This document shows positions 4,678 through 60,386 of a stretch of 64,000 nt of DNA, one piece after another; the first letter of the stretch is position 1; each line of letters opens with the position of its first letter. The stretch lies in the NCBI RefSeq assembly GCF_002159835.1, contig NZ_NFJL01000005.1, positions 124,001 to 188,000 of the forward strand, written 5' to 3'. The notes below the pieces were generated by a model that saw only the letters and a program-made list of their open reading frames with translations, searched no databases and was not told the DNA's origin. The translations under genes were made by a program, and so were the position numbers. This DNA is from Blautia sp. An249 (GTDB taxonomy: Bacteria; Bacillota; Clostridia; Lachnospirales; Lachnospiraceae).

Positions 4678-5505
4678 TCAATATAATTTCAGGACATTAT
4701 GCAGATATTTCTTAGAAACCATGGCTGTTTCGTAATTGCACACCCTCGGCCAGTCTACTTCCACACAGAGGATTCCGTCATACCCGGCTTCTTTTAACAC
4801 TTCCAGCACGCCGCGAAAATCCACGATTCCCTCTCCCAGAGCTCTGCAGCGTTTGATAGGAAATTCCGGATGTTCGTTTTCATCAGAACTGATGTCTTTG
4901 AAATGCACATAAGCCAGCCTTCCCACATACTTTTTGAACACTTCCACCGGATCCATCTTTCCCAGTACGCAATGACAGGTATCAATACAGTATTTTACCA
5001 GTTCCGGATCTGTATGGGCATCCAGATAGGCAATCTGATCCGCCGTCTCAAAATAGGTTCCGTAATGAGGATGTACGCAGACGGTCACTCCGTATTCCTT
5101 TGCCATCTTTGCAATCTCATTAATGTGTTCGCAGATAACGGCAAGTTTCTCTTCTGTGGCTTTTGCCCCGTTTCTTCTTGGCCCTTCCAGATTCATCAGA
5201 GATGCATTGTGAGCTTTCAGAAACTCACAGCATTGTACCGCCATTTTATAATCTGTCTCGTAATCATCTGACATGGCATGATAGATATTTACAAATTCCA
5301 CCTGGTTTTCTTCCATAATCCGGTCAAACTCTTCGGGATAATCTTTAAATAAAGTAGAAACAAAGTTAAAATTCTCTACACAGGAATACCCCAAATCAGC
5401 AACTTCCCGAACTCCCTGTTCAAACAATCCTCTCGCTTCTTCCGTACTTTCTGTTGCTCCGAACTGGGACTTCATCCAGGTCCAGACTGTATATGCGATT
5501 TTCAT
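4678..5505 (-). CDS. Sugar phosphate isomerase/epimerase (TIM barrel), paralogue 2
   Basis: 275 aa xylose-isomerase-like TIM barrel of the IolE/hexulose isomerase type. Metal-ligand-type residues are visible in CVHPHYG near 145, CIDTCHC near 174, YVHFKD near 204 and CVEVDWPR near 250. It lies 19 bp after a clearly homologous neighbour (same AYTVWTW / GYTVWTW start and the same motif order), so the pair arose by tandem duplication. It is the last gene of the rare-sugar operon. It likely isomerises, epimerises or dehydrates an oxidised sugar made by the upstream dehydrogenases; the exact reaction is not predictable. Confidence 0.8.
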   Translation of the reverse strand: MKIAYTVWTWMKSQFGATESTEEARGLFEQGVREVADLGYSCVENFNFVSTLFKDYPEEFDRIMEENQVEFVNIYHAMSDDYETDYKMAVQCCEFLKAHNASLMNLEGPRRNGAKATEEKLAVICEHINEIAKMAKEYGVTVCVHPHYGTYFETADQIAYLDAHTDPELVKYCIDTCHCVLGKMDPVEVFKKYVGRLAYVHFKDISSDENEHPEFPIKRCRALGEGIVDFRGVLEVLKEAGYDGILCVEVDWPRVCNYETAMVSKKYLHNVLKLY

Positions 5506-9620: not shown

Positions 9621-10619
9621 TTAACTGAGAATCAGTACCCCGATAATAAAGCATATAATTCCCGTAAATAATGTAATTTTCGTTTTCCATGTTGTCTTAT
9701 TAAATTCCCCATATAAAATACCGTATACATACTGCCACAGATTAAAGGAAGTTCCCATGGGCCAGGCAATGGCGAAACTTAGTACCGGAGCGGAAACACA
9801 ATATCCCACATTTCCTCCATAATGGCAAAAAGCAGCAAACAGACTCATGAAAATCCCTTTTCTGTTTTTCCAGGAAAAACAGGTACGCCACTGTTTCTTT
9901 CTGGTAAGCCAAATTCCGGAAATTACCCAGGTTCCCAAAAAAGAGCCGATTGACAGAAGTCCCACACACAGCAGCGCCGGAATTCCATCCGGGTTTAAAT
10001 CCGTCTGTACCGTTACCGACTGGGCGATGGAATAGGCCGGATTTAAAAAGAGAGCTCCGAACAAAAGGAAGAGGGTGTTTTTCATCCGGTGTTTCATCTC
10101 CTGTTTATAGGACTCATCCTTTGCATTTTTTCCGTTGTCCATATCCCGCATCTTAGAGGCAAGCTGACAGATAATAGCCGCTGCAATCAAAATTACAGAG
10201 GCGATGGCAATCTTTGCAACGGACTGTCCCTCCCGGATTCCTCCGAAGAGACAGGAGGTAAAGGTTCCTACCAGCACGCTGCAGGTTGCGCTGATAGACG
10301 TGGATAAAATCAGCCCCACATTTTTGATCACGATCATATTAATCTGAACTCCCGCACAGAAAAACATTCCGCAGCACAGGGCAAATATGCAGTCTCCCGG
10401 CTGCCTCTGAATAATTTCCAGAAGAGGCTCTGCGATAAAAAACGGTTTAATAACCAGGATGATTCCCCAGACGATTCCCACAGAAAACGTATACATCCAT
10501 AACATAAAAGCTGCCACCGGCCATCCGTTTAACCGTTTGATACACTGATACCAGCTTCCCCAGATAATAGTGGTAAACAATAGCAGAAGCAGCGCCTGTG
10601 TCGATGATAATACTCCCAT
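9621..10619 (-). CDS. RhaT/GRP-like 10-TM sugar transporter (DMT superfamily)
   Basis: 332 aa with ten predicted helices and the IIWGSWYQCIKR start common to glucose/rhamnose-type carriers of the drug/metabolite superfamily. A basic cytoplasmic loop (SKMRDMDNGKNAKDE) divides two five-helix halves. RhaT catalyses rhamnose:proton symport. Here the gene is embedded between a Gfo/Idh dehydrogenase and the ABC importer genes with 9-19 bp spacing. So it probably moves the same or a related sugar, either as a second uptake route or as an exporter of a product. Substrate unknown. Confidence 0.75.
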   Translation of the reverse strand: MGVLSSTQALLLLLFTTIIWGSWYQCIKRLNGWPVAAFMLWMYTFSVGIVWGIILVIKPFFIAEPLLEIIQRQPGDCIFALCCGMFFCAGVQINMIVIKNVGLILSTSISATCSVLVGTFTSCLFGGIREGQSVAKIAIASVILIAAAIICQLASKMRDMDNGKNAKDESYKQEMKHRMKNTLFLLFGALFLNPAYSIAQSVTVQTDLNPDGIPALLCVGLLSIGSFLGTWVISGIWLTRKKQWRTCFSWKNRKGIFMSLFAAFCHYGGNVGYCVSAPVLSFAIAWPMGTSFNLWQYVYGILYGEFNKTTWKTKITLFTGIICFIIGVLILS

Positions 10620-25756: not shown

Positions 25757-25801
25757 CGAAAATATTTTCATGGTTGTTTTATTTCTTCTTTCCATTAAAA
25801 T
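25757..25801 (+). promoter_or_regulatory. Phosphatase promoter with SorC-regulon operator
   Basis: CGAAAATATTTTCA at 25757-25770, 3 bp, TTGTTT at 25774-25779, 16-bp spacer, TAAAAT at 25796-25801. The motif and its 3-bp distance to the -35 box match three other promoters at 29865-29910, 31002-31047 and 31066-31111. Confidence 0.72.
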
Positions 25802-25858
25802 GAAGATATAAATCGGGAATGGTTTTCCGTTTCCAGGTCTTTAGAAAGTGAGGAAACT

Positions 25859-26524
25859 ATGAATTCAACAAAAATCTATATTATACGTCATGGGGAAACC
25901 CGATTAAATGCAGAAGGACGCCTTCAGGGGCATACCGATATTCCGCTGAATGAAAATGGAAAAAAGCTGGCTGAGATTACCGGAGAGGGCCTCCGGTCAA
26001 TTCCTTTTGATTGCATCATTTCCAGCCCCCTTAGTCGTGCCGTGGAAACTGCACAGATTGTAACCGCTCCTTCTTCCCGGTTGTCGCAGAGAACAATTCC
26101 CATAGTGAAAGATCCCCGTCTAATGGAAATTTCCTGGGGGCGCTGGGATGAGCTGATCTGTACCAGAGACAATTTTGAAGTTCCCTGCAAAGATTTTACC
26201 AAATTTTATACAGATCCGCTGCATTTTCCTGCTGCCCCAGAGGGAGAAAGCGTTGCAGATGTCTGTAAACGGGTGGCCAATTTCTGGGATGAGTTTACCC
26301 TTTCTCCCTCTTATCAAAACAAAACCATTTTAATTTCCGCACACGGGTGTTCTGTAAGGGCCCTTCTCTATTATATTGATGGGTCCGTCAATGACTTCTG
26401 GAGAGGCGGCGTTCCTCAGAATTGTTCCGTCAGCCTGGTAGAAATAACGGATTCAAAGCCTGTCATTCGTTTTACAGATCAGATTTATTACGATCCGTCT
26501 TTGTGCGCTAATCTTTATAAATAA
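25859..26524 (+). CDS. Histidine phosphatase (phosphoglycerate mutase-like) family protein
   Basis: 221 aa. Catalytic RHGETRLNAEGRLQGHTD near 9-26 carries the phospho-accepting His. The second basic pocket is SPLSRAVETAQI near 57, the distal acid is in EISWGRWDE near 90, and the second catalytic His is in SAHGCSVRA near 161. Such enzymes remove phosphate from sugar phosphates, phosphoglycerate or nucleotides. The promoter carries the same operator as the RLP and kinase units, so it is probably part of that regulon and may clear a phosphorylated intermediate. Single-gene unit ended by a strong hairpin. Confidence 0.85.
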   Translation: MNSTKIYIIRHGETRLNAEGRLQGHTDIPLNENGKKLAEITGEGLRSIPFDCIISSPLSRAVETAQIVTAPSSRLSQRTIPIVKDPRLMEISWGRWDELICTRDNFEVPCKDFTKFYTDPLHFPAAPEGESVADVCKRVANFWDEFTLSPSYQNKTILISAHGCSVRALLYYIDGSVNDFWRGGVPQNCSVSLVEITDSKPVIRFTDQIYYDPSLCANLYK

Positions 26525-26526
26525 TC

Positions 26527-26575
26527 AAAAACACATGCCGCAAAGTACATTATCATGGCTTGCGGCATGTGTTTT
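26527..26575. terminator. Bidirectional terminator between phosphatase gene and pdxA2
   Basis: A perfect 16-bp inverted repeat at 26527-26542 and 26560-26575, with A4 at one flank and T4 at the other as part of the stem. It serves both convergent transcripts. Confidence 0.9.
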
Positions 26576-26588
26576 ATAAACATAATTT

Positions 26589-27571
26589 TCAATTGGAACT
26601 GTTTCCTTTCAGGAATTCTTCTGCTACTTTCATTGCCTGAATCATATTGGCTCCATCTGCAATCCCCTTTCCGGCAATATCAAAGGCTGTTCCATGATCT
26701 ACAGACGTCCGGATAATCGGAAGGCCTATCGTACAGTTTACACAATCATTCATCAGATTTAACTTCGCAGCTATATGTCCCTGATCGTGATACATCGCTA
26801 TGGCTCCGTCATAGACGCCACGCAGAACTTTTCCGAACAGTGTATCTGGTGGAATCGGTCCGGATACATGAATTCCTTTCTTTTTCGCTTCTTCAATTGC
26901 CGGAATCGTTTCCTCTATTTCTTCCGTTCCAAACAATCCATTTTCTCCTGCGTGGGGGTTCAAACTGCGACAGCTATTTCAGGTGCTGCCAGACCGGTGC
27001 TTTTAAGGGCTTTATCCATCATTTCAATGCAGTCCAGGATTCTCTCTTTTTTCACCCGATTACAGGCCTCTCTGAGAGAACAGTGCGTGGACACATGCAT
27101 AATCTTTAGAGGTCCGTAAAACATCATTGCATATTTCTTTGTTCCTGTAAGTGTGGCAAAGATTTCCGTATGTCCGTCAAAATTGTGTCCGCCTTTATGA
27201 AGGGCTTCTTTATTCAGAGGCGCTGTCACGACTCCTTTGGTCTTTTTGTCCATGGCATCTTTAATAGCTCTTTCTACATACCTATAGGCCGCGTCTCCGC
27301 ATCTGGGAGACAGCTTTCCAATTTCATACTGATCCATGGTTAATCCCGCAGGATCGATAACATTAACGGCATCCTCCGTATATTCACCCACATCACTTAT
27401 CTGTTTAAAATTCAAGGATATATCCAATAAGTCTGCATAGTGTTTCATAATATCTATTGCGCCGTACACAATGTACCCTGCTTTGAAAATACTTTTATCT
27501 GCAAGCGCCCGTACAATAATTTCCGGTCCCACACCTGCGGGATCTCCCATTGTGATTCCTAAATAATTCAT
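26589..27571 (-). pseudogene. pdxA2: PdxA2-type 4-phospho-threonate/erythronate dehydrogenase, frameshifted
   Basis: Two overlapping frames make one PdxA-family protein of about 327 aa. 27571-26960 gives MNYLGITMGDPAGVGPEI, DGHTEIFA near 137 and VSTHCSLREAC near 163, ending at PEIAVAV-stop. Frame -1 continues from 26963 as NPHAGENGLFG, with YHDQGHIAAKL and IRTSVDHGTAFD. The family junction is AVAGLNPHAGE, so one base is missing near 26963-26966. The third metal His (YHDQG) lies after the break, so the first fragment alone should be inactive. YHDQGH rather than YHDQGL favours PdxA2 over vitamin B6 PdxA. PdxA2 oxidises 4-phospho-D-threonate, which then loses CO2. Could be a sequencing error. 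Confidence 0.8.
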
Positions 27572-27574
27572 TTT

Positions 27575-28798
27575 CTACACCTCTCTTATGTAATCCTTTA
27601 TAAATTTAATTGCCTCTGTCAGTGTATTCTCATCTCCAATAGAACCGCCCTTTACAACACACGGCAGTCCGGGATGATCTCCTCCATCCAGAAGAACCAG
27701 CGCAACTGTCGCCAGAACTTCTTTCTGTATCGTTGCTCCGTGCGCGTGATTATGTCTGCTTACACTGATTGCTGTGTCTCCCCCGGTCAGAAAACAACCG
27801 CTTACTTTTGCTTCTTTCAAAATCATTGACGATAGTTTTCCTATCATTTCCTGGGTATATTTTGCCACATCTGTACGCTTCATTCCCCTGGATTTTCCTT
27901 CCGTAACTGCTGCATGATAGTCCGCCAGTTCCCGGGCCGAGGTAACGATTACATCCTGTCCTGCTTTTAGTTCTGAAATTGCTTTTTCAGCAACCGTCTC
28001 CAGATTTCCTCCTTTCAGCAAATCTCCTATATCCATTTTAACCAGACTTGCTCCTTCTGCCAGCGCTTTATTCACTTGCGCCCGTGAGGTATCGCTGATA
28101 CTTCCGATTAACGACAACACAGGATATTTCGGACGAAAAGCTTTAAAAAGTGCATTTGCCATCCCTGCAGAACCTACCCAGAGAATTTTTTTATCCTTCT
28201 GCTTCAATACAAATTCAACCACATTCTCCAAATCCCGCTTATCCAGCACATCAAATGTCAGAAATCTGGATCCGTTCAGATGAAACGATTTATTTCTGAC
28301 ATCCGTCAGTGAAATATGCTGCACGGTTTCTTTCATTTCTTTTTCGATCATGGATTTCAGATTGTCGTCTTTTACAAAGCACAGGGGATCTCGCATAATT
28401 TCTGTCTCCATCACCCTTTTTCCTCCAAAATAGAGGATTCCGTCTACTACCGTCCGATCAGAATCTGGATTTGCAGGATTAAATACAATCATATCCGGAT
28501 GAATTTCTTCTAATTCTGCTTTTAATTCGGATCCAATATTCCCTCTGAGCGTTGAATCAATCTTCTTGTAATAATGTTCAAAGGAATATTTTTTTACATT
28601 CTGAAGAATATCCTTTACTTTCTGATAGGCTTCTTCTGCTGATATATTTCTGGATTCCGAATCAATTACATAGGATTTTCCCGGTTCCACATCGCTGGGG
28701 TCAAAAACGATATGGGCGTCTATCCCGTTTTTTGTCATCTGAACCCCTGCATCGCTTGCACCGGTAAAATCATCCGCAATCATTAAAATTTTTCCCAT
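27575..28798 (-). CDS. DUF1537 four-carbon acid sugar kinase (DtnK/OiaK-like)
   Basis: 407 aa from ATG 28798 (AAGGAG 9 nt upstream); an earlier in-frame start lies inside the permease gene. Signature IADDFTGASDAGVQM near 6-20, KKIDSTLRGNIGSEL near 77, and C-terminal LTGGDTAISVSRH near 337 and LPCVVKGGSIGDE near 378. DtnK phosphorylates D-threonate at O4 and is normally paired with PdxA2, which is the next gene here, 3 bp downstream. OiaK relatives phosphorylate 3-oxo-isoapionate for an RLP. Both partner types occur in this locus, so the substrate is ambiguous. Confidence 0.87.
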   Translation of the reverse strand: MGKILMIADDFTGASDAGVQMTKNGIDAHIVFDPSDVEPGKSYVIDSESRNISAEEAYQKVKDILQNVKKYSFEHYYKKIDSTLRGNIGSELKAELEEIHPDMIVFNPANPDSDRTVVDGILYFGGKRVMETEIMRDPLCFVKDDNLKSMIEKEMKETVQHISLTDVRNKSFHLNGSRFLTFDVLDKRDLENVVEFVLKQKDKKILWVGSAGMANALFKAFRPKYPVLSLIGSISDTSRAQVNKALAEGASLVKMDIGDLLKGGNLETVAEKAISELKAGQDVIVTSARELADYHAAVTEGKSRGMKRTDVAKYTQEMIGKLSSMILKEAKVSGCFLTGGDTAISVSRHNHAHGATIQKEVLATVALVLLDGGDHPGLPCVVKGGSIGDENTLTEAIKFIKDYIREV

Positions 28799-28802
28799 TT
28801 GT

Positions 28803-29762
28803 TTACTCCTTACTCTCCAGCGGATATTTGGGACATCCAAATTTCTTTGCCCACCATGCTACAATAAACGGTACAATCAATGCTGACAGCACTGTACACG
28901 CTGCAACCTGAACTGTGGCCACTGAAACATAGGGTTCCCAGGCAGTATCCGCAATCGCTATAGCCGCCGGGACGGCTACTGCATTTCCGGCCGTTGTAGC
29001 ACAAGCCCATCCGGCATAACCCGGACGCCGGCTGATAAGCCGATCACAAAGACAGATAAAGGCTCCTCCCACAAAAATAACAATTGCTGCCAGAATGATT
29101 CCGGAAATTCCGCCTTCAACAATACTGCCGAAATTGATTCCCGCCCCCAGGGCAAATCCTACGAAAGGAATTACAGCATTTCCTACCGGCCCGAAAAACT
29201 CTGTCATCTTATGATCCAGATTTCCAAGCAGCATACCTGCCAGAATCGGTATTAACGCCGCAAGCAGGCTCATATAAGGTATCTCTGCCTGTCCGGATGC
29301 TCCCAGGGCAACCAGTGTCAAAAAAGGGCCGTCATTGATGGCCAGAATAGGCATACACGCACAGTCTTTATCGTCCCCGTACTGCTGCATCAGTGCGTAA
29401 TAGACAGAACCATTGCTGTTTGTTACTGCACAGATAATAGCCATACTGGAAATCCCCAGAAAACCTGCCGGACCTAAAACCTTTCCGATAATAATTCCAA
29501 TGGCGGATCCTACTGCAAATTTAGCAAGCAGTAAAACCCCTCCTCGTTTCAGTACTGCCGGCATTTCTCTTATATGGAGCTTCGTTCCCATGCAAAAAAG
29601 CAGGATTCCCAGACAGCAAGAGGATCCGGCGCTGGAAAAAGTGGCCGTTGTAATTCCCCCGATTTGCAGAGCTTCCGGAAAAAACGTATTAACAATACAC
29701 CCCAGGATCAGCGGAACTACCATCATTCCTGCTGGTACCCGATTAAGAAATTTCATAATCAT
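28803..29762 (-). CDS. kdgT: 2-keto-3-deoxygluconate permease (KdgT)-like transporter
   Basis: 319 aa with about ten helices. Family features: NRVPAGMMVVPLILGCIVNTF at the N-terminus, TNSNGSVYYALM near 108, and the C-terminal ATTAGNAVAVPAAIA near 255. KdgT imports 2-keto-3-deoxygluconate by proton symport; relatives import other sugar acids. GGAGG lies 9 nt before the ATG. It is first of the kdgT-kinase-pdxA2 unit, with 4 bp to the kinase, so it likely imports the acid that the kinase phosphorylates. Confidence 0.88.
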   Translation of the reverse strand: MIMKFLNRVPAGMMVVPLILGCIVNTFFPEALQIGGITTATFSSAGSSCCLGILLFCMGTKLHIREMPAVLKRGGVLLLAKFAVGSAIGIIIGKVLGPAGFLGISSMAIICAVTNSNGSVYYALMQQYGDDKDCACMPILAINDGPFLTLVALGASGQAEIPYMSLLAALIPILAGMLLGNLDHKMTEFFGPVGNAVIPFVGFALGAGINFGSIVEGGISGIILAAIVIFVGGAFICLCDRLISRRPGYAGWACATTAGNAVAVPAAIAIADTAWEPYVSVATVQVAACTVLSALIVPFIVAWWAKKFGCPKYPLESKE

Positions 29763-29864
29763 TTTCTACTTCCTCCAAATCTGTAATTTACATACTTCAT
29801 CTTGAAAATTGCTTTCCTTCCTGGGATTCGTGGCCACATGGTTCAGGAATTTCTGTGTAATTTT

Positions 29865-29910
29865 AATATACCTCTGATTTTTTATGAGATACAGATTGAA
29901 AATTTTTTCA
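29865..29910 (-). promoter_or_regulatory. kdgT-kinase-pdxA2 promoter with SorC-regulon operator
   Basis: Minus strand order: operator TGAAAAAATTTTCA (complement of 29897-29910), 3 bp, TGTATC (29888-29893), 17-bp spacer, TATATT (29865-29870). The poor -35 box directly next to the operator suggests activator dependence. Confidence 0.7.
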
Positions 29911-29933
29911 GTGAAGAAAATAGAAGCCCTGCT

Positions 29934-30947
29934 TTATCTGTCTTTCTTTTCTTTATTCTTCTGATACAGTCGGATTAACTCTGTTCCCAGCTTACTGTCC
30001 ACAATCAGAACATCAATCAGTCCGGCTATCAGCGCATAATAAACCGTGTGCGCCTTATATCTGCCTGATGCGATTGCTATTTTCTGAGGTATTTTCTTAT
30101 AAGTCTCAAAATCGATGGAAATGGTCCTCTCTTTCAGATCCGTCTCACACTCCTTCCCGTTTTTGTCAAAGAAACGAAGTGCAATATCCCCCACCACTTC
30201 TTTATCTTCCAGTTGTTTTCTGAGTTTTTCCTCTATATAGCTGGGACTGGCCAGTATCGTAGTTACCTCCGGATAAAAGGAGCCGATTCCACAGATAGAA
30301 ATATCAACTTTATCAAAAATTTTATACATCTGCGCAAATCTTTTCTCTTTCTTTAAAGCAACAACTGTTTCACTGGAACTCATTAATGCATCTGAAAGAA
30401 ACGCATATTTTTTTCCGGAAAAGGCTTTTGCCAGCCGCTGCACCAGAGTTCTCACATCCCACTCATCTTTGCAGGCCGCCAGACTTCCATGCAAAGTGAC
30501 AAATGTAGCGTCCACTCTTTGTGCAGGGTTCAGATAATTAATCATTTCATATACCGTACTTCCCCAGGTTATTCCCAGCGTATCCCCCGGGCGAATGATT
30601 CTCTGCAAATATCTTGCCGCTTCCAATGCCACCAGTTTCTTATCGGACTCCGGATCTTCATTTTCTCCGTCTTCTTCCGGATAGAAAGAAGACGGGGCAA
30701 TAATTACATTTTGCAGCTGAAAAGCTTCTTTTAATTCTGCCTCCAGTTCAATACACTCTATATAATTATCGCGGATTACAAATTGTACGATTCTTTCTTC
30801 CTTAGCCCTTTTTAACAGTCTGGATACTGTGGTAATTGATATATTTAATTCTTCTGCTATTACATTTTGTGGTTTTTCTTTTATGTAATAAAGATATGCT
30901 GCTTTAATGACTAAAAAAGAGGATTGATTGTATTTATCAAAATTCAT
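29934..30947 (-). CDS. SorC/DeoR-type sugar-binding transcriptional regulator
   Basis: 337 aa. N-terminal HTH (KAAYLYYIKEKPQNVIAEELNISITTVSRLLKRAKEERIV) in the first 55 residues. The SorC effector domain follows: GDTLGITWGSTVYEMI near 116, CGIGSF near 208, IASGRYKAHTVYYALIAGLIDVLIVDS near 290. Such regulators sense phosphorylated sugars and form tetramers on palindromic sites. AAAGGAG precedes the ATG. It sits between the kdgT unit and the divergent RLP gene; four promoters around it carry the same palindrome, the best one in front of this gene. Confidence 0.87.
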   Translation of the reverse strand: MNFDKYNQSSFLVIKAAYLYYIKEKPQNVIAEELNISITTVSRLLKRAKEERIVQFVIRDNYIECIELEAELKEAFQLQNVIIAPSSFYPEEDGENEDPESDKKLVALEAARYLQRIIRPGDTLGITWGSTVYEMINYLNPAQRVDATFVTLHGSLAACKDEWDVRTLVQRLAKAFSGKKYAFLSDALMSSSETVVALKKEKRFAQMYKIFDKVDISICGIGSFYPEVTTILASPSYIEEKLRKQLEDKEVVGDIALRFFDKNGKECETDLKERTISIDFETYKKIPQKIAIASGRYKAHTVYYALIAGLIDVLIVDSKLGTELIRLYQKNKEKKDR

Positions 30948-31001
30948 TGCTGCTCATTCTCCTTTGTGTGATCTTTACATCCGAAACCATTTGTTATTAT
31001 T

Positions 31002-31047
31002 AGTATAATGAAATCCAGAAATATTTTCCATTATGAAAATATTTTCA
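31002..31047 (-). promoter_or_regulatory. sorC promoter with perfect TGAAAATATTTTCA operator
   Basis: The perfect 14-bp palindrome at 31034-31047 is followed on the minus strand by 3 bp, TGGAAA (complement of 31025-31030), 17-bp spacer and TATACT (complement of 31002-31007). An extra imperfect copy (CAGAAATATTTTCC, 31016-31029) covers the -35 box and spacer, which could give autorepression. Confidence 0.7.
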
Positions 31048-31065
31048 GCATATATTCTCAGGTAT

Positions 31066-31111
31066 TGCAAATATTTTCATAGTTGTGGGGTTCTGTTTCT
31101 CTGGTTATAGT
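31066..31111 (+). promoter_or_regulatory. RLP promoter with SorC-regulon operator
   Basis: TGCAAATATTTTCA at 31066-31079, 3 bp, TTGTGG at 31083-31088, 17-bp spacer, TATAGT at 31106-31111. The 18 bases ATATTTTCATNGTTGT-like around operator and -35 are nearly the same as in the phosphatase promoter at 25760. Confidence 0.75.
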
Positions 31112-31165
31112 AAAGGCACAAAGATACAGACAAACAAATTATGAAAACAAACAGGAGGAATAAAA

Positions 31166-32512
31166 ATGATTGAACAGAACAGATTTTACAGTCCCCTTTT
31201 AAACCCGCTTTATGAAGGATGTGACATTGACGATCTCTGCGTGGCAACTTACCTGATTGGCGCCGAGAAAGAAGAAGGAGCTATTTTAAAAGCCGTTAGT
31301 ATTGGTATCGAGCAGACAACCGGATCCTGGGTGGACGTGCCGGAAGAAACAAATGAAATGCGTCAGTCCTATGCTTCGAAAATTATTGGTGTATACGAAG
31401 TACCCCATAATTATGAAAATCAGACCGATGTGAATATAAATGTAGCTCCCGGCGGTATGCGCTTCTATGTAATCCGTATCGGTTACCCTGTTGCAAATAT
31501 CGAGAATAATATCCCTCTGTTAATTGGATCCATCTGTGGAAATATTATGTCCATGCCTTATTTAAAATTACTGGATATTGATTTCCCGAGAAAATATGTA
31601 GAGCCTTTCCAGGGCCCGAAATTCGGTATTCAGGGAATCCGTGATATGCTGCAGGCATATGATCGTCCTATTTTAAACAATATGATTAAGCCCTGTACCG
31701 GATATACCCCTGAAGTGGGAACGAAGCTCTTCTTCGAGGCTGCTGCCGGCGGCGTAGACATTATTAAAGACGACGAACTTATCGGCGGCGACCGTTCCTT
31801 TAACAAACTTGCCGATCGTGTAAAACTGAATATGGAAGCGGTAGAACGTGCAAAGGAAATCAAGGGAGAAACAACTTTATATGCATGTAATATTACCGAT
31901 GAGGTATGCCGTCTGAAAGACAATGCAATGACCGTCATTAACAACGGCGGAAACTGTATCATGGTAGATATTCACGGTACCGGATATACCGCTGTAAGAA
32001 TGTTGGCTGAAGATCCGGAAATTACAGTTCCGATTCTGGCACATTCCTGCTTTAACGGCGCATTTACCTGTTCTCCGAATCAGGGTATCAGCTCTAAGGT
32101 AGTAAATAAGTTAGTGCGTATGAGCGGCGCCGATATTTATCTGACTCAGCCTCCGTATGGAAAATTTGATAATACCTTTGATAATTACATTACCAATGTC
32201 AATACTTCCAAAGCGAAATTCTACGACTTGAAACCTATGCTTCCCTTTGTTGGCGGTGGAGTTGTTCCTGGTCTTGTGGCTAAATTTATGGATGACTGCG
32301 GTCCTGACCTGCTTCTGGGCGTGGGAGCCGGTATTCATGCACATCCAATGGGACCAAGAGCCGGAGCCATTGCTTTCCGTAATGCTATTGACGCAGTTAT
32401 GAATAACATTCCGTTACGTGAAAAAGCCAAATCCTGCAAGGAACTGGACGCTGCTATTCAGAAATGGGGAATTTACGGAGAGGATCACAGCAAGGATCTC
32501 TATGCCATTTAA
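31166..32512 (+). CDS. RuBisCO-like protein (RuBisCO large-subunit family, form IV type)
   Basis: 448 aa, full-length RuBisCO large-subunit fold. GSWVDVPEET near 53 and GNIMSMPYLKLLD near 125 belong to the N-terminal domain. The barrel has NNMIKPCTGY (Lys 175) and GGVDIIKDDE with the carbamylation-type Lys 201, Asp 203 and Glu 204. It also has His 293 (ILAHSCF), a loop-6-type Lys 333 (YGKFDN) and GVGAGIHAHPMGPRAGA near 385. By eye the second Lys of KPK is Cys and the PVASGG serine is Gly, so true CO2 fixation is unlikely. Known RLPs enolise or decarboxylate, including on 3-oxo-isoapionate 4-phosphate. AGGAGG lies 7 nt upstream. Regulated with an acid-sugar kinase and PdxA2. Confidence 0.9.
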   Translation: MIEQNRFYSPLLNPLYEGCDIDDLCVATYLIGAEKEEGAILKAVSIGIEQTTGSWVDVPEETNEMRQSYASKIIGVYEVPHNYENQTDVNINVAPGGMRFYVIRIGYPVANIENNIPLLIGSICGNIMSMPYLKLLDIDFPRKYVEPFQGPKFGIQGIRDMLQAYDRPILNNMIKPCTGYTPEVGTKLFFEAAAGGVDIIKDDELIGGDRSFNKLADRVKLNMEAVERAKEIKGETTLYACNITDEVCRLKDNAMTVINNGGNCIMVDIHGTGYTAVRMLAEDPEITVPILAHSCFNGAFTCSPNQGISSKVVNKLVRMSGADIYLTQPPYGKFDNTFDNYITNVNTSKAKFYDLKPMLPFVGGGVVPGLVAKFMDDCGPDLLLGVGAGIHAHPMGPRAGAIAFRNAIDAVMNNIPLREKAKSCKELDAAIQKWGIYGEDHSKDLYAI

Positions 32513-49826: not shown

Positions 49827-51098
49827 TCAGGGTTCTATATTCAGCATTTTTCTCACTCGCATAAAGCTCAGACGATTTCTCACATAGGGAGAAAGTTCCA
49901 TAGTTAAAGGGATGATGTCTTCCGTCAGCCCGATGTCCTGTACGGTTCTGACACAGCCGCCGTTTTTCAGGATTTTATCCAGTTCTTCCACTTCCGGAAT
50001 CTCATCAATAATGTCTGCTATCTTATACAGGCTGGCATTGAGCCGGTCTGCGGATACCATTTCCATCGGATCCGGAGTATTCTCCTCAATCGTCTTCTCA
50101 TACAGACCTTTCTTTCCGAAAGTATCCCGTATCAGTTTTTCTTCCATTCCCTGGTACGGATCGGCGTAACATTTTCCGTCGCGGACAGCTTCTGCGATCC
50201 TCTTATATTCTCTCGCCGCAAGCATGGTCCCCACGGAAACTTTTTCTCCATGGAGGGCGTCCAGTGGCCCGTTGATTACTTCCATTTCCCACAAATGGGA
50301 CATATGATGTTCCGCACAGGATGCGGGTCTGGAATTCCCGATCATCTGCATCGCAAGACCCGAGAGGATCAGTGCATACATCAGTTCCTCACAGGCTTCC
50401 TCATCTCCCGCCGCTACGCCTTTTATACAGGAGCGCACCGTCTTCAGAGCCTGTTCTTCCATACGGATTACCCGTTTACAGATATATTCTCCGGTCAGCA
50501 GATGGGCAATCTTCCAGTCCGCCAGGCAGATATATTTTCCGAACAAATCAGAAGCTCCGGAGGCGTTCAGCCTTTTGGGCGCTTTTGCAAATATATTGGT
50601 ATCAGCAATCACACAGATAGGGGGTGCAGCCGGGATTGTCTTCTTCATTCCATCCCAGGTCATAGCTGCAACCGTTGATACGAATCCGTCTACGCTGGCC
50701 GCCGTAGGAACCGATACAAAGGGAATTCTGTACTGATATGCCACATACCGGCTTATATCGTGGATTGTTCCGGATCCTACCGCTAAAATAAGGTCAATAT
50801 CTTCTTCCATATTTTTCTCTACGATCTCTACTCCATGATTATCTGCATGAAGTCCTTCCGCCTCCAGAATCACAACCTGACAGCGGTCGTAAATGTCTTC
50901 CATAATATCATAAGTGGCTTCGTAGGTATTGGTATCGCAAATCAGCAGCGGAGAAATATATTCTTTCAGAAATCCATCCGACATCATCTCTTCCAGTTTC
51001 TCCACAGCACCGGCTTCAATCAAAATTTCCTGTACATCGATTTTGTGCTTTTTCCCACAGCTACAAGGTCGGGCAAAATCGTCCGTATCAACTCGCAT
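49827..51098 (-). CDS. egsA: sn-Glycerol-1-phosphate dehydrogenase (AraM/EgsA)
   Basis: 423 aa. NAD-binding [13 protein letters not shown] near 103, [10 protein letters not shown] near 126. Metal ligands: Asp in [10 protein letters not shown] near 180, His in [10 protein letters not shown] near 263, His in [13 protein letters not shown] near 282. The B. subtilis homologue AraM reduces dihydroxyacetone phosphate to glycerol-1-phosphate and lies in the arabinose operon; here too it lies beside an arabinose locus. The N-terminal CSCGKKH is common in firmicute homologues. GGAGG site upstream, own promoter. Confidence 0.9.
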
Positions 51099-51175
51099 GT
51101 ATTACATCCTCCTATTCTTCCTGACGAGTAAATTTCTATTTTTTAATTCATTAAATCTCTGTCATTTGCTTTCCT

Positions 51176-51204
51176 ATTATACATGATCCGGTAAAAAAAA
51201 TCAA
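51176..51204 (-). promoter_or_regulatory. egsA-ispF promoter
   Basis: Minus strand: TTGATT (complement of 51199-51204), 17 bp, TATAAT (complement of 51176-51181). Confidence 0.7.
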
Positions 51205-51237
51205 CGCGCTTTCCTATGTCGCATCCATAGCGGAGCG

Positions 51238-51285
51238 TTTTTTGTGTAATAGGAAATCCAGGGGAATTTCCTATTACACAAAAAA
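51238..51285. repeat. 20-bp perfect inverted repeat between egsA and the ABC operon
   Basis: The left arm at 51238-51257 (T6 then GTGTAATAGGAAAT) and the right arm at 51266-51285 are perfect complements with an 8-nt loop. The A6/T6 ends mean it could act as a terminator in either direction. It abuts, and shares its A-tract with, a second hairpin at 51284-51319. Confidence 0.9.
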
Positions 51286-51319
51286 CCGGCCGCCACAATT
51301 TTACCTGTGACAGCCGGTT
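51284..51319 (-). terminator. Terminator of the galactofuranose/arabinose-type ABC operon
   Basis: On the minus strand AACCGGC ... GCCGGTT encloses a partly paired CTGTCACA / TGTGGCG stem and is followed by TTTTTTGTG. It lies 19 bp after the permease stop at 51339. Confidence 0.85.
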
Positions 51320-51338
51320 CTTAATATCATTTCTTATA

Positions 51339-52385
51339 TTATTTTTTCTTTTTCAGAGTACCGATTACAGACTGCAGTACGATGAAGAAGCAAAGTAATG
51401 CAGAAAGGGTAATACGTACCCACCAGCTTGAAAGTGTTCCCTGTGTGGTGATTAAGCTGGTAATCGTACCTTTAATCAGTACGCCGAATAAGGTACCGAT
51501 TGGTGTACCAACACCACCGCTTAACAGAGTACCGCCGATAACGGATGCGGAAATTGCGTCCATTTCAAAACCTTTCGCCTGCTCTACGAAACCTGCACAA
51601 CTGTTCAGACAGAATAAGAATCCGCCCAGACCTGCCAGGAATCCATCCAGGATATAAGCCTGGAATTTGGTTCTCTTAACGTTCAGACCCATCATCATAG
51701 CGCTCTGCTGGTTACCGCCGATTGCGTACAGTTTACGTCCGAACTTGGAGTATTTCAGTAATACTGCAATGATGATTAATACAATAATCGCAATTACAAC
51801 GGTTGGATATATGTATGCGGCAATAAAATCACCTCTTCGGTTAACTGTACCGAACGGCATATTGATTTTGAATTTTGCCCATTTCATAAAGGTTTCATTG
51901 GTAATGGCAATCATGTCTGTGCTGACAATGGCTGTCATACCACGGCCGAAGAACATACCGGCCAGAGTAACGATAAATGGCTGAATCTCTAAGTAGGATA
52001 CTAAGAATCCCTGTACAACACCGAATAACAGACCGATTACTAATGCCATAAGAAGAGCTACATATGCGTTAGCCCCTTTATTCTCCATTAAATCAGCAAC
52101 TGTCATACATACAAGTGCTACTACAGAACCAACGGAAATATCAATTCCGCCGGTAATCATTACGATGGTCAGACCACACGCAATAACAATCAGACCTGCG
52201 TTGGATACAAACAGGTTTAAGAACATCTGTGCATTTGCAAAACCTTTGTCTGCAAACACGATCATACCTGCGATGTACATAACGAAGAACAACGCTATGG
52301 TAACAATCAAAAGGAATCCTGTACCGGTCAGTTTTTTCTTTGCCATTGGATTAGCTGCAACAGCTTTTTCGTTTGATGCTTTCAT
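51339..52385 (-). CDS. Sugar ABC transporter permease, YjfF-like
   Basis: 348 aa, about nine helices of the BPD_transp_2 (ribose-type) permease family. GGIDISVGSVVALVCM near 78 is the family hallmark, and GRKLYAIGGNQQSAMMMGL near 227 and GGTLLSGGVGTPIGTLFG near 293 are typical. The start overlaps the previous stop by one base (TAATG). The YtfT/YjfF two-permease layout is that of the E. coli galactofuranose importer; in this locus L-arabinose or an arabinose-containing sugar is likely. Confidence 0.88.
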   Translation of the reverse strand: MKASNEKAVAANPMAKKKLTGTGFLLIVTIALFFVMYIAGMIVFADKGFANAQMFLNLFVSNAGLIVIACGLTIVMITGGIDISVGSVVALVCMTVADLMENKGANAYVALLMALVIGLLFGVVQGFLVSYLEIQPFIVTLAGMFFGRGMTAIVSTDMIAITNETFMKWAKFKINMPFGTVNRRGDFIAAYIYPTVVIAIIVLIIIAVLLKYSKFGRKLYAIGGNQQSAMMMGLNVKRTKFQAYILDGFLAGLGGFLFCLNSCAGFVEQAKGFEMDAISASVIGGTLLSGGVGTPIGTLFGVLIKGTITSLITTQGTLSSWWVRITLSALLCFFIVLQSVIGTLKKKK

Positions 52386-53458
52386 TATTTCTGACCTCCT
52401 TCCACTGCAACGGCTTTTTTCGCTTTACGCTCTGCCAGGAATTTCTGGAATACAGGGCTCTGCAGTACAACGATAACGATTACGACGATTGCCTTATATA
52501 CAGGCAGCTGGTCAGCAGATACGTTCATTGCGTACAGAGTTGTTGTCAGGGCCTGAATGGTGTAAGCACCGATTACAGAGCCCATCAGGCTGAATTTACC
52601 ACCGCCGAGAGCGTTACCGCCAAGAGCAACTGCAAGGATGGCATCCATTTCCAGGTTCAGACCAATGTTGTTTGCATCTGCGGAATAGATACGTCCGGAA
52701 GCTGCAATACCTGCAATACCTGCCAGAACACCGCAGATAACGTAGGTAAGGAATTTGATCATTTTGGAATTCAGACCTACCAGACGGGAGGCGCTTCCGT
52801 TAATACCTACACATTCGATGTACAGACCTAAGGCTGTATGTTTTAATACCAGATATACGACAACTACGGTGATAATTGCCAGGAAAATCGGTGTGGAAAC
52901 CGGTGAACCGCCAATGTATCCACCAATTGCCTGATAAGTACCAACACGAACATAAGTAATCTGTCCGCCTGTTACTAACTGTGCAATACCACGTCCTGCA
53001 GTATACAGGATCAGGGTAGCAACCATCGGCTGGATGTTAAAGTAGGAAACCAGCAGACCGTTAAATGCTCCGCAGATTCCTGCTACGATTAATGCTACAA
53101 CAATTGCCAGTACTAATGGATTGGCAAATTCATTGACACTTACTTCACCGCCGGAAAGAATCTGGCAGCAAACGGCGCCGGCAACTGCCATAACAGCACC
53201 AACACTGATGTCCTGTCCGCCGGAAGCTGCGGTTACAAGAGTCATACCTACAGCTAAGATTACCAGCTCAGATGCACGGTTGATAACGTCAATGATATAT
53301 CCGTAGAGAACACCGTTGTTAATAGAAATTGCGAAGAAAGTCGGTGTCTTAATCAGGTTGATTAAAAGTACAACAACCAGACATACGATAGGAAGAAACA
53401 GTCTGTTGCCTGTTAACTTCTTAATAAAACTTGTATCTTTTTCAGAAGTCTTACTCAT
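52385..53458 (-). CDS. Sugar ABC transporter permease, YtfT-like
   Basis: 357 aa from ATG 53458, about 10 nt after GGAGG; the GTG at 53470 sits directly on the ribosome site. BPD_transp_2 hallmark ASGGQDISVGAVMAVAGAV near 64-82; GSASRLVGLNSKMIKF near 223 and LGGNALGGGKFSLMGSVIG near 283 are conserved. It overlaps the ATPase gene by 8 bp. Works with the next gene product as a heterodimeric channel. Confidence 0.88.
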   Translation of the reverse strand: MSKTSEKDTSFIKKLTGNRLFLPIVCLVVVLLINLIKTPTFFAISINNGVLYGYIIDVINRASELVILAVGMTLVTAASGGQDISVGAVMAVAGAVCCQILSGGEVSVNEFANPLVLAIVVALIVAGICGAFNGLLVSYFNIQPMVATLILYTAGRGIAQLVTGGQITYVRVGTYQAIGGYIGGSPVSTPIFLAIITVVVVYLVLKHTALGLYIECVGINGSASRLVGLNSKMIKFLTYVICGVLAGIAGIAASGRIYSADANNIGLNLEMDAILAVALGGNALGGGKFSLMGSVIGAYTIQALTTTLYAMNVSADQLPVYKAIVVIVIVVLQSPVFQKFLAERKAKKAVAVEGGQK

Positions 53459-54968
53459 TGTTCTCTTCACCTCCTGCGATGGTCTTCATGATTGTATTCT
53501 GATTCAGCTCATCTCCGGAGAGTTCTCCGACTTTCTTGCCGTCTCTTAATACAGCCATGCGGGAACAGGTACGAAGCATCTCTTCTACTTCGGAAGAAAT
53601 AAAGGTAACTGCCATTCCCTGATCCGCTAAATCAAGTACCAGTTTCTGAATTTCTGTTTTGGTACCGATGTCAATACCACGGGTCGGTTCGTCCAGAATC
53701 AGATATTCCGGCTCTGTCAGCAGCCAGCGTCCCAGAATAACTTTCTGCTGGTTACCACCGGAAAGACTCTTAATCGGAGTTTCACGGCTTGCGGTCTTAA
53801 TCTGCAGCATCTTGATGTATTTATCTGCAGCTTCTTCCATTTCTTTTCTGCTCATCAGTTTAAACATACCGCGTTTTGCCTGAAGAGCGATAATGATATT
53901 TTCACGTACAGACAGATCGGCAATAATACCGTCGCGCTTTCTGTCTTCCGGAAGATACGCCATACCGAGCTTCATTGCATCCAGAGGTTTGTTGATCTTT
54001 ACTTCTTTTCCATTTACTTTCAGCTTACCGCTGTCTGCCTTGTCAGCACCATAGATGGCACGTACCAGTTCAGAACGTCCGGAACCCAGAAGACCTGTAA
54101 GACCGATAACTTCACCTTTGTTAATAGCAATATTGAAAGGACGGATGGTTCCTTTATGTCCAAGACCTTCTGCCTCAATTACCGGAGCTCCTTCGAATTT
54201 CTTCTCCAGATGTCCGCTCTTAATATCAGCCAGGTCATCGAAGTCTTTACCCATCATCTTAGCAACCAACATAACTCGCGGAAGATCTTTTGTCTCGTAC
54301 TCTCCTACAAGTTCACCGTTTCTCAAGACTGTAATTCTGTCACATACTGCGTATACCTGCTCCAGGAAGTGAGTTACGAATATGATTCCAACTCCCTTCT
54401 CACGAAGGCGGCGCATCAGCACGAACAGTTTCTCTACCTCATCATCATCCAGAGAAGAGGTAGGTTCATCCAGAATCAAAACTTTACATTCCATATCTAC
54501 CGCACGGGCGATAGCAATCATCTGCTGAATTGCGATAGAGCAGTCTTCCAGCATCTGTGTGGGCGGTACCGCAATATCCAGACTCTTTAACAACTCTGCA
54601 GATTTCTTATTCATGGTTCTCCAGTCGATTAATCCCATTTTTCTCGGCTCACGTCCGATGAACAGATTCTCCGCAACCGTCAGGTTCGGACAAAGGTTAA
54701 CCTCCTGATACACCGTACTGATTCCGTTATTCTGTGCATCCTGAGGAGAATGGTTCACGATCTTCTTTCCGTCCATTTCCACAGTTCCGGCACTCAATTC
54801 ATGCACACCGGTAAGCACTTTGATCAATGTAGATTTACCAGCTCCGTTTTCTCCCATCAGAGCGTGAATTTCCCCGCTTCGAAGCGTAAAATCAACATTT
54901 TGCAGGGCGCGAACACCAGGGAATGTTTTACTAATACCTCTCATTTTCAAAATGACATTATGTTCCAC
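53451..54968 (-). CDS. Sugar ABC transporter ATP-binding protein, YtfR/RbsA-like
   Basis: 505 aa, two fused ATP-binding domains. Domain 1: Walker A GENGAGKSTLIK near 38, LILDEPTSSLDDDEVEK near 162. Domain 2: LLGSGRSELVRAIYGA near 291 (degenerate Walker A, normal for RbsA-type), LSGGNQQKVILGRWL near 404, LILDEPTRGIDIGTK. Start is GTG 54968 with AGGTGAAAG upstream. It powers the YtfT/YjfF-like channel. Confidence 0.92.
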   Translation of the reverse strand: MEHNVILKMRGISKTFPGVRALQNVDFTLRSGEIHALMGENGAGKSTLIKVLTGVHELSAGTVEMDGKKIVNHSPQDAQNNGISTVYQEVNLCPNLTVAENLFIGREPRKMGLIDWRTMNKKSAELLKSLDIAVPPTQMLEDCSIAIQQMIAIARAVDMECKVLILDEPTSSLDDDEVEKLFVLMRRLREKGVGIIFVTHFLEQVYAVCDRITVLRNGELVGEYETKDLPRVMLVAKMMGKDFDDLADIKSGHLEKKFEGAPVIEAEGLGHKGTIRPFNIAINKGEVIGLTGLLGSGRSELVRAIYGADKADSGKLKVNGKEVKINKPLDAMKLGMAYLPEDRKRDGIIADLSVRENIIIALQAKRGMFKLMSRKEMEEAADKYIKMLQIKTASRETPIKSLSGGNQQKVILGRWLLTEPEYLILDEPTRGIDIGTKTEIQKLVLDLADQGMAVTFISSEVEEMLRTCSRMAVLRDGKKVGELSGDELNQNTIMKTIAGGEENNE

Positions 54969-55094
54969 TATCTTTCACCTGCTTTCCTCATTTTAAGCAT
55001 AAACGAGGCGTGGCACGAAGATGCTTGTATCCTTTTCTCCGACTTCACATACCACGCCTCGACATTCAAGTCACTCTATCTCTATGACTTCTAA

Positions 55095-56231
55095 TTAATA
55101 TGCACGTCCGTCAATAACTTCCTGAGTAACTGCTGTTACTTCATAAGATTCTCCGTCAACATCTACAGTTGCAACGGTATCGTCTGTTGCAAACATTGTT
55201 TCGTCAACGAATGTTTCTTTTTCAACTTCTTCTCCGGCTTCCAGAGCTTTGATGATTTCATCTACACGAGGACCATGTAATGGGTTACACTCTGTAGCAA
55301 GAGCAATTTCTCCGCTCATTGTCATGTTCAGAGCTGCAGTAGCTGCGTCGAAGGACATAACCATAATCTGGCCGTCTTCTGTTCCGATTTCGTAACCAGC
55401 AGCTTTGATAGCGTCGATAGCACCGAATGCTTCGTTATCGTTCTCGCAGTATACAACGTCTACATCGTCACCGCTCTGTTTCAGGATAGATTCCATAACT
55501 TCCTGACCTTTAGCCTGTGTAAATTCACCAGACTGCTGAGCTAACATGTTCCAGTTTTCGTTTGCTTCGATTGCTTCTTCCAGAGCTTCTGTACGTCCGA
55601 TCTGAGCGGATGCACCGATGGTTCCCTGAATATCAACGATGTTGATTTCTTCTTCTCCACGTCCTTTAGCTTCCAGGAATGCTTTCAGCCATGCACATGC
55701 TTTCTGGCCTTCCAGTTTGAAGTTAGAACCTACCCATGCTGTAACCAGGTTTTCATCAGAGATGTCAACCATACGGTCTACAGTGATTACAGGGATTCCT
55801 GCATCATATGCTTCCTGAAGAACGGTATCCCAACCTGTTTCTGTAACAGGTGCAAGAAGTATGTAATCTACACCCTGCTGGATGAAGTTACGGATTGCAG
55901 TAATCTGGTTTTCCTGTTTCTGCTGAGCATCGTCAAAGATTAATTCGTATCCGTTTTCTTCAGTGAAAGTACCTTTCATGGACTCTGTGTTTGCAGTACG
56001 CCAGTCAGATTCAGCACCTACCTGTGAGAAACCAACAGTAAGAACATCGCCTGAACCAGAAGCGTCGTCTGCTGCTGCATCATCTTCTGCTGCTGCATCG
56101 TCGTCTGCTGCTGCGGTATCCTCTGTTGCTGCGCTGTCATCGGATGCTGTGTCGCTGGATCCGCCACAGCCTGCAAGCATAGTACCAACTACAGCTACGC
56201 TTAAAAGTGTTGCTAATACTTTCTTCTTCAT
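55095..56231 (-). CDS. Sugar ABC transporter substrate-binding lipoprotein, YtfQ-like
   Basis: 378 aa. Lipobox MLAGC (Cys 22), then a low-complexity linker of Ala and Asp (about 28-60) that spans the wall-side gap. The binding domain follows: VGFSQVGAESDWRTANTESMK near 67, DDAQQKQENQITAIRNFIQQGVDYILLAPVTETGW near 100, and SFDAATAALNMTMSGEIALATECNPLHGPR, matching galactofuranose/arabinose-type YtfQ proteins. AAGGAGG before ATG. 126 bp separates it from the ATPase gene, room for partial termination. Confidence 0.9.
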   Translation of the reverse strand: MKKKVLATLLSVAVVGTMLAGCGGSSDTASDDSAATEDTAAADDDAAAEDDAAADDASGSGDVLTVGFSQVGAESDWRTANTESMKGTFTEENGYELIFDDAQQKQENQITAIRNFIQQGVDYILLAPVTETGWDTVLQEAYDAGIPVITVDRMVDISDENLVTAWVGSNFKLEGQKACAWLKAFLEAKGRGEEEINIVDIQGTIGASAQIGRTEALEEAIEANENWNMLAQQSGEFTQAKGQEVMESILKQSGDDVDVVYCENDNEAFGAIDAIKAAGYEIGTEDGQIMVMSFDAATAALNMTMSGEIALATECNPLHGPRVDEIIKALEAGEEVEKETFVDETMFATDDTVATVDVDGESYEVTAVTQEVIDGRAY

Positions 56232-56358
56232 GATAAATCCTCCTTAACTTTCTGCGGCTGTTCTTTACTCTTGCCGCAACTGATAATTCTATTTTAAACT
56301 TTTTTTTTAAAAAATCTACGGAAAAAACCCTTAAATTAGTAATTTATTTTACTAAATT

Positions 56359-59510: not shown

Positions 59511-59598
59511 CTCTTCTCCTTCACCTTCCACAAAACATGCTGTCTTTCTATTCTAACATAAAAATCGGAAAAGAGGTATCCCCAAGTAAAAAAAAGAA

Positions 59599-59646
59599 GA
59601 GGCAGCGGCTGACTTTCAGATTCCTCCTCTGGCCTGCCGCAACCTC
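59599..59646 (-). terminator. Terminator of the araABD operon
   Basis: On the minus strand GAGGTTGCGG pairs with CCGCTGCCTC (two central imperfections) around a long loop and is followed by TTCTTTTTTTT. It lies 22 bp after the araD stop. Confidence 0.6.
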
Positions 59647-59668
59647 CTTTTTCTTTATTTCCTGTTTT

Positions 59669-60364: not shown

Positions 60365-60386
60365 TTATAAAAACCTCTTTTCTCTC

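Follow-up and report, generated by a model that had tools for sequence, protein, structure and literature searches.

What does a RuBisCO-like protein (RLP) do among genes that look like those of a sugar-acid pathway? The question is raised by a locus of Blautia sp. An249 at positions 25757..32512 of the window (the whole stretch of 64,000 nucleotides analysed here, G000:C45:124001-188000 of a 3.94 Mb genome), where the sole PF00016 match of that genome stands with a DUF1537 acid-sugar kinase, a PdxA2-type dehydrogenase, a KdgT-type permease, a phosphatase and a SorC regulator. Few RLPs, only a handful, have been characterized, according to a published account (PMC10176493). The analysis places this RLP in a coherent subfamily of cultured acetogens and anaerobes of the gut. 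Three alternative upstream modules, which were not found together and two of which have a palindromic site in common, allow the class of the subfamily's substrate to be deduced, and its active site retains residues that matter for the CO2 step. The data suggest that the RLP handles a small sugar phosphate that all of these front ends can make. Neither a role for the subfamily nor its gene combination was found described in the open-licence literature searched. In this way, other roles of the RuBisCO active site in anaerobes can be tested directly on a few C3/C4 ketose phosphates; the RLP is also a candidate for a missing step of sugar-acid and polyol catabolism in Lachnospiraceae. All the genes that a sequence-only reading of the window had called (a full-length RLP, the kinase, PdxA2, KdgT, the phosphatase and one SorC regulator) were found where it had placed them, with pdxA2 split in two:

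25859..26524, + strand: histidine phosphatase family protein, 221 aa (protein family match, homologues in relatives)
26589..26963, - strand: PdxA family, C-terminal portion, reading frame interrupted where one base is missing (family match, alignment)
26960..27571, - strand: PdxA family, N-terminal part (family match, alignment)
27575..28798, - strand: DUF1537 acid-sugar kinase (family and curated models, homology to locus L048)
28803..29762, - strand: KdgT-type sugar-acid permease (family and curated models)
29934..30947, - strand: SorC/DeoR-type regulator with sugar-binding domain PF04198 (family and curated models)
31166..32512, + strand: RLP, 448 aa (PF00016 165 bits, PF02788 31 bits, AlphaFold2 model, alignment)

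The neighbourhood of RLP, DUF1537 and PdxA2 to which that reading had drawn attention is a recurrent unit in relatives, with a shared palindrome. The same order PdxA-DUF1537-KdgT-SorC-RLP was found in loci L047, L048 and L055, with the phosphatase on the other strand, and the set is rearranged in L049 and L058; a chance neighbourhood was ruled out, since relatives keep the gene set. The comparison was made on the best 80 of 472 stretches with relatives of the RLP, one genome per GTDB species, so that deeper RLPs are thinly sampled. A tree of 101 rows (built by a quick search, its outgroup branches long and the placement of MtnW and OiaX-type RLPs left unused) put the window RLP in a 43-row clade with a support of 98 in the SH-like approximate likelihood ratio test; the partial L089 and the duplicates L003 and L004 (of L048 and L058, respectively) were left out of the tree alignment and of the residue counts. 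Using our own bit-score thresholds on raw open reading frames (ORFs) (GlpK 400, GlpO/GlpA 300, phosphotransferase system (PTS) 300, PdxA and DUF1537 60), 42 of the 43 clade loci carried exactly one of three front ends and none carried two: eight had PdxA and DUF1537, 28 GlpK-like and/or GlpO/GlpA-like genes, and six a PTS. Several loci end near a contig edge, and the single clade locus lacking a front end, L050, has only ~1.5 kb of upstream flank. No front end of the three was present in any of the 37 outer-clade RLP loci, which are a control for RLPs as a group rather than for random genes.

The polyol-type modules vary in composition. The Clostridia GlpK type comprises SorC, a GlpK-like kinase, a GlpA/GlpO-like flavin adenine dinucleotide (FAD) enzyme, a second FAD enzyme, DUF1667 and the RLP; Sporomusa sp. 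KB1 (L079) has GlpA, RLP, GlpK, a MIP channel, GlpB-like, GlpC and GlpP genes, and the RLPs of Propionibacteriaceae (L082, L083, L088) also stand with GlpK-like genes. The richest version of the module is in Clostridium thailandense (L066, 4057-15223), with SorC, phosphatase, RLP, glyoxalase-family, FGGY and short-chain dehydrogenase/reductase (SDR) genes, followed by MIP, GlpK-like, DhaK, DhaL and a small gene. Pseudoramibacter alactolyticus holds two RLPs of the subfamily, one by PdxA and DUF1537 (L056) and one by GlpK/GlpO-like genes (L060). The basal 10-row branch of the clade (support 100) is entirely GlpK-linked and the PdxA2 rows are nested in a 16-row set (support 100), the innermost 10-row group with PdxA2 rows having a support of only 84, so that the PdxA2 front end, and with it the arrangement of the window, looks derived. 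The L056 kinase is only 26% identical to the window DUF1537 protein, and the PdxA proteins of L056 and L059 are 39-52% identical to the window halves; such distances point to a possible repeated recruitment of the sugar-acid front end.

The active site narrows the class of substrate further. AlphaFold2 modelled the RLP with confidence (predicted local distance difference test score 91.9, predicted template modelling score 0.91), and most of the length of the model was matched by RLPs and RuBisCOs in Foldseek, with TM-scores of 0.79-0.94 among the 50 rows listed; together with the PF00016 score and a Lys-Asp-Asp-Glu (KDDE) metal site, this places it in the RuBisCO superfamily (form IV). It scored below the cut-off on the OiaX model NF042437 (180.3 bits, cut-off 700), on the MtnW models PRK09549 (310.5, cut-off 409) and TIGR03332 (265.1, cut-off 513.6) and on the RuBisCO type III model (264.8, cut-off 497), and it departs from the residue set of RuBisCO forms I-III at K177C, R295S, H327L, S379G and T173M relative to C. 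necator RbcL. The earlier suggestion that it lies outside the characterized clades therefore holds for those represented by these models, and the RLP represents a new subfamily. In the alignment with C. necator RbcL, E60, W66, N123, K175, K201, D203, E204, H294, K334, G381 and G403 are kept in 43/43 clade rows (the “carbamylation-type residues” noted beforehand, K201, D203 and E204, among them), T65S, T173M, K177C, S379G and G404A are changed in 43/43, and R295 and H327 are present in none. In RuBisCO (spinach numbering), R295, H327 and S379 bind the second phosphate, at P2 as opposed to P1, and E60, N123 and K334 matter for the CO2 step; the latter three are also kept in 37/37 outer rows. With the enolization residues kept and the second phosphate site lost, the RLP is suited to a monophosphate bound at P1 whose ketone lies beside the phosphomethyl group, as in dihydroxyacetone phosphate (DHAP) or erythrulose-1-phosphate. 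Known RLPs that act on ketose 1-phosphates are MtnW and the R. rubrum DeepYkr RLP (5-methylthioribulose-1-phosphate 1,3-isomerase), the latter likened here by description, the sequence comparison having covered MtnW (L145). MtnW resembles the RLP in lacking R295 and H327, but it has also lost E60, N123 and K334, which the RLP keeps.

These observations are drawn together in a tentative reading, favoured here although as a whole it falls somewhat short of probable, in which the RLP would be a ketose-1-phosphate isomerase/epimerase (of erythrulose-1-phosphate or DHAP) behind interchangeable front ends. The RLP would be the constant downstream enzyme and the front end would be swapped between KdgT, DUF1537 kinase and PdxA2 for sugar acids, a GlpK-like kinase with a GlpO/GlpABC-like dehydrogenase for polyols, and a PTS with a dehydrogenase, under a SorC regulator that would control the module in the window and many relatives. 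Judged by family, GlpK/GlpO-type and PTS modules should make ketose phosphates, not 3-oxo acids, and the common product of all front ends would be a ketose phosphate CH2OP-CO-R. Its single phosphate would sit in the P1 site, the carbamylated lysine-Mg2+ site and Lys175 would enolize C3, and reprotonation would make the enzyme an isomerase or 3-epimerase. The candidate substrate favoured here would be erythrulose-1-phosphate (the EryC step), passed on to erythrose-4-phosphate by isomerases of triosephosphate isomerase (TIM) and RpiB type; if the acid used in the window is D-threonate, the substrate would be DHAP instead.

Which of the two sizes of substrate is more plausible can be judged from the kinases. 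In E. coli GlpK, F270 packs on glycerol. The corresponding position is V, T or C in 26/26 RLP-linked GlpK homologues, and F270 is kept in 18 of 20 other, non-RLP-linked kinases fetched, the exceptions having S and V (22 rows had been labelled as other kinases, two of which proved to be RLP-linked copies). The loss of F270 in all RLP-linked kinases makes a larger, C4 polyol such as a tetritol their likely substrate. The best GlpK (729-777 bits) in 18 of 20 genomes is a further copy that scores above the RLP-linked one (the RLP-linked copy was identified from its sequence in L064 and L072 only), and all 13 of these 18 that were fetched have F270. A plain glycerol to DHAP front end is weakened by these higher-scoring further copies and by the F270 loss; glycerol could still be the substrate, since G793 and G782 have a single GlpK match each at the limit used and GlpP genes lie near some of the RLPs. 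In known tetritol pathways, TIM/RpiB homologues convert erythrulose phosphates to erythrose-4-phosphate, and EryC epimerizes erythrulose-1-phosphate at C3 (PMC10733421, PMC5992420), a step that would be feasible for an enolizing RuBisCO-type site. In keeping with a tetritol route, genes for both TIM and RpiB are present in the PdxA2-type loci L055 and L058. Of the tetritol set (EryA, EryB, EryC, EryH/TIM, EryI/RpiB), a GlpK-like kinase and/or a GlpD/GlpA-type dehydrogenase have their likeness in 28/43 RLP loci; the RLP differs in taking the place proposed for the EryC epimerase, and the window in being fed by DUF1537/PdxA2.

The Salmonella D-threonate pathway (DtnK and PdxA2) has a KdgT-type permease, and the same families, KdgT-DUF1537-PdxA, stand in one operon there; the locus described here adds the RLP and the SorC regulator. 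Its kinase and PdxA also score under the curated D-threonate cut-offs: the best curated model for the kinase is D-threonate kinase, at 269.9 bits (cut-off 450), and the intact PdxA of L048 reached 358.6 bits for D-threonate-4-phosphate dehydrogenase (cut-off 583) and 358.7 bits on the general PdxA model (cut-off 290). A further difference is that TIM and RpiB genes share loci with the module in two PdxA2-type relatives (L055, L058). The kinase start is given as TTG 28840 in the ORF list, and the homology to L048 begins at residue 15, ATG 28798. The window pdxA2 is split into frames 27571-26960 and 26963-26589, one base being absent at ‘AVAGLNPHAGE’ in the alignment with L047, L048 and L055, and the gene is intact in seven relatives (L047, L048, L049, L055, L056, L058, L059). 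As the halves are 70% and 82% identical to the intact L048 PdxA, the frame break would be either recent or an assembly error; a search of the Blautia genome for a further PdxA-family gene found none besides the split copy. A homologue of the phosphatase adjoins pdxA in L047, L048 and L089 (42% identical in L048).

Shared control of the front ends was examined through the operator-like palindrome TGAAAATATTTTCA. The window has four copies of it with up to one mismatch, each of them upstream of a unit of the RLP locus:

25757..25770, no strand assigned: operator-like palindrome, one mismatch, ~95 bp upstream of the phosphatase gene (pattern search)
29897..29910, no strand assigned: operator-like palindrome, one mismatch, ~142 bp upstream of kdgT-DUF1537-pdxA2 (pattern search)
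31034..31047, no strand assigned: operator-like palindrome, exact, between the SorC and RLP genes (pattern search)
31066..31079, no strand assigned: operator-like palindrome, one mismatch, ~93 bp upstream of the RLP gene (pattern search)

The start that had been given to the locus, 25757, is the first base of such a site. In the window, the 13-base core of the palindrome gave eight strand matches, at four places, where 0.41 were expected, and 0/100 shuffles reached eight. Across the 43-member clade, 40 sites with up to one mismatch were found in 21/43 loci (mean of 0.25 in 20 mononucleotide shuffles), covering 7/8 PdxA-type loci, 13/28 GlpK/GlpO-type loci and L050. They stand upstream of RLP, SorC, KdgT, phosphatase, GlpO-like and FGGY genes and, when two mismatches are allowed, of DUF1537 and GlpK-like genes too. 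In 24/43 clade loci there is a SorC homologue scoring 200 bits or more, which may be the protein that binds the palindrome; related regulators appear to govern the sugar-acid front end and the clostridial polyol one, and need not govern the basal and PTS types. In the Blautia genome, four of nine sites (up to one mismatch) are at the RLP locus and the other five about equal a reversed-pattern control of four, so a regulon beyond the RLP locus was rejected there. Among its relatives, G350 has five sites (three at the RLP locus) against one in the control, and G239 seven (one at the RLP locus) against none. Exact copies of TGAAAATATTTTCA also stand upstream of the outer-clade RLPs L106, L120 and L126, and the site may thus predate the front ends seen here.

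Several observations weigh against an isomerase/epimerase behind interchangeable front ends. A TpiA-family gene is already present, and the more specific idea that the RLP is the sole triosephosphate isomerase was rejected on TpiA-family genes found in G000, G350 and G239. With D-threonate as the acid, the ketose phosphate would be DHAP and epimerization would be meaningless. That the PTS and the FGGY plus SDR front ends yield a 1-phosphate is our inference. TIM is near only 3/43 and RpiB near 2/43 clade RLPs. The separation of front ends is blurred in L056 (PdxA type), where two short GlpO-like fragments, of 114 and 199 bits and so below the threshold of 300, lie at 5037-5453 and nearby, beside the PdxA/DUF1537 genes; they may be the remnant of a polyol front end. 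Control by one regulator may not extend to the whole clade, since the 10 basal loci (Sporomusa, Desulfosporosinus, Propionibacteriaceae and their kin), the six PTS loci and L059 lack the palindrome at up to one mismatch, and 19/43 clade loci lack SorC. GlpP near 5/43 clade RLPs (and 6/37 outer RLPs), the GlpK and GlpA of Sporomusa L079, which exceed the curated glycerol cut-offs, and the DhaK and DhaL genes of L066 fit C3 metabolism too. Finally, CO2-type chemistry may be indicated by E60, N123 and K334, which MtnW has lost and 43/43 clade rows keep.

The sequence-only reading had proposed that PdxA2 makes a phosphorylated 3-oxo acid and that this is decarboxylated or cleaved by the RLP, in the manner of OiaX in the breakdown of apionate. 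Taking a hydroxymethyl branch away from the OiaX substrate gives the PdxA2 intermediate, the RLP, DUF1537 and PdxA2 gene set has a shared palindrome, and K334 is kept in 43/43 clade rows, as in the annotated OiaX, L146. Most clade members, however, stand beside front ends that should make no 3-oxo acid (28/43 with GlpK/GlpO/GlpA-like and 6/43 with PTS genes and no PdxA, 34/43 in all), and this, with the derived look of the PdxA2 front end, disfavours the route. Comparison with the proteobacterial plasmid RLPs L146-L150 points the same way. Like the window RLP, these have a four-carbon acid sugar kinase beside them or close by wherever the locus is annotated (four loci; L147 is without annotation, and only L146 is annotated OiaX), and L150 adds a KdgT-type permease, but no PdxA is among the annotated neighbours shown and the proteins are only 28-29% identical to the window RLP. 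R295 is kept in 5/5 of them and lost in 43/43 of the clade, as are H327 and S379, each kept in 4/5; W66 is F in 5/5. The argument from R295 is only moderate, because L146 itself has Q at H327 and C at S379; it also lacks E60 and N123. Taking in the low OiaX score given above (180 against 700), action on the 3-oxo acid of PdxA2 is probably wrong, and as an account of the locus it is unlikely.

The retention of E60, N123 and K334 in the clade and the outer rows alike would be explained if the RLP were a carboxylase/hydrolase that adds CO2 and water to the enediol of a ketose-1-phosphate, giving 3-phosphoglycerate with glycolate (from erythrulose-1-phosphate) or formate (from DHAP), and the clade does hold acetogens (Acetobacterium, Sporomusa, Clostridium drakei), which could use formate. 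Against it, K177 is Cys in 43/43, K334 may persist only for phosphate binding, the bypass would cost an ATP, and no such reaction was met in the open-licence literature searched, which was not searched for it by name; we regard this reading as quite improbable. In its fullest form, a catabolic RuBisCO-like carboxylase turning short ketose-1-phosphates into 3-phosphoglycerate plus glycolate (C4) or formate (C3), it is very doubtful; if true, anaerobes including acetogens would dispose of electrons by a RuBisCO reaction without ribulose bisphosphate, outside the CO2-fixing cycle.

An aldolase that splits erythrulose-1-phosphate into DHAP and formaldehyde would leave a Mg-bound enediolate, an intermediate that RuBisCO chemistry handles. 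The same cleavage has been suggested for erythritol breakdown in Propionibacterium pentosaceum (PMC10733421), and the Propionibacteriaceae RLPs beside GlpK-like genes would suit it. Such an enzyme would have no use after D-threonate, from which PdxA2 already gives DHAP, and a ketotetrose-phosphate aldolase is likewise quite improbable here. Least likely, indeed barely credible, is that the RLP eliminates phosphate from DHAP to form methylglyoxal, a known type of RuBisCO side reaction: the front ends include oxidation, so that a redox sink could help, and a glyoxalase-family gene adjoins the RLP in L066, but 20/24 RLP genomes already have MgsA-family matches (17 above the cut-off; that of the Blautia genome, 127.9 bits, is under it), which gives a replacement of methylglyoxal synthase no support, and the F270 loss speaks against glycerol as the front-end substrate.

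The ketose-1-phosphate isomerase/epimerase favoured here would belong to a rare but widespread subfamily. Of 397 genomes in the family of the Blautia strain, 22 encode an RLP (E up to 1e-30); the subfamily is represented in three of them (the strain itself, G350 at 87% and G239 at 76% identity), the next best match being 45% identical. In a class-level draw, 10/391 genomes matched the RLP at E up to 1e-90, none except its own above 47% identity. Among the best 80 loci, the subfamily was found in Lachnospiraceae, Eubacteriaceae, Acetobacterium, Clostridium, Sporomusa, Desulfosporosinus and Propionibacteriaceae, and in one Treponema and one Eggerthellaceae member. G239 carries a second, C-terminal RLP fragment of ~105-115 residues, 73% identical (L046, G239:C17, ~9921-10238), apparently a remnant.

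Other RLP groups came to light in the comparison. In L010-L012, L015, L017-L021, L025 and L135, G replaces both E60 and K334 (11/11), and in five genomes of this group both TIM and RpiB genes are near the RLP; a possible interpretation is an enolase/isomerase-only branch. Several outer-clade RLPs (L095, L104, L107, L109, L113, L116 and others) stand in a unit with two PEP_hydrolase-like (PF09370) genes and UPF0261, mostly with a ComB-type phosphatase and, in the six named, a GlpP antiterminator, which is another unexplained RLP pathway. The window itself also holds a separate carbohydrate cluster (49827-61994) with an iron-alcohol-dehydrogenase-family gene, parts of a sugar ABC transporter, a response regulator with an AraC domain and an FGGY kinase.

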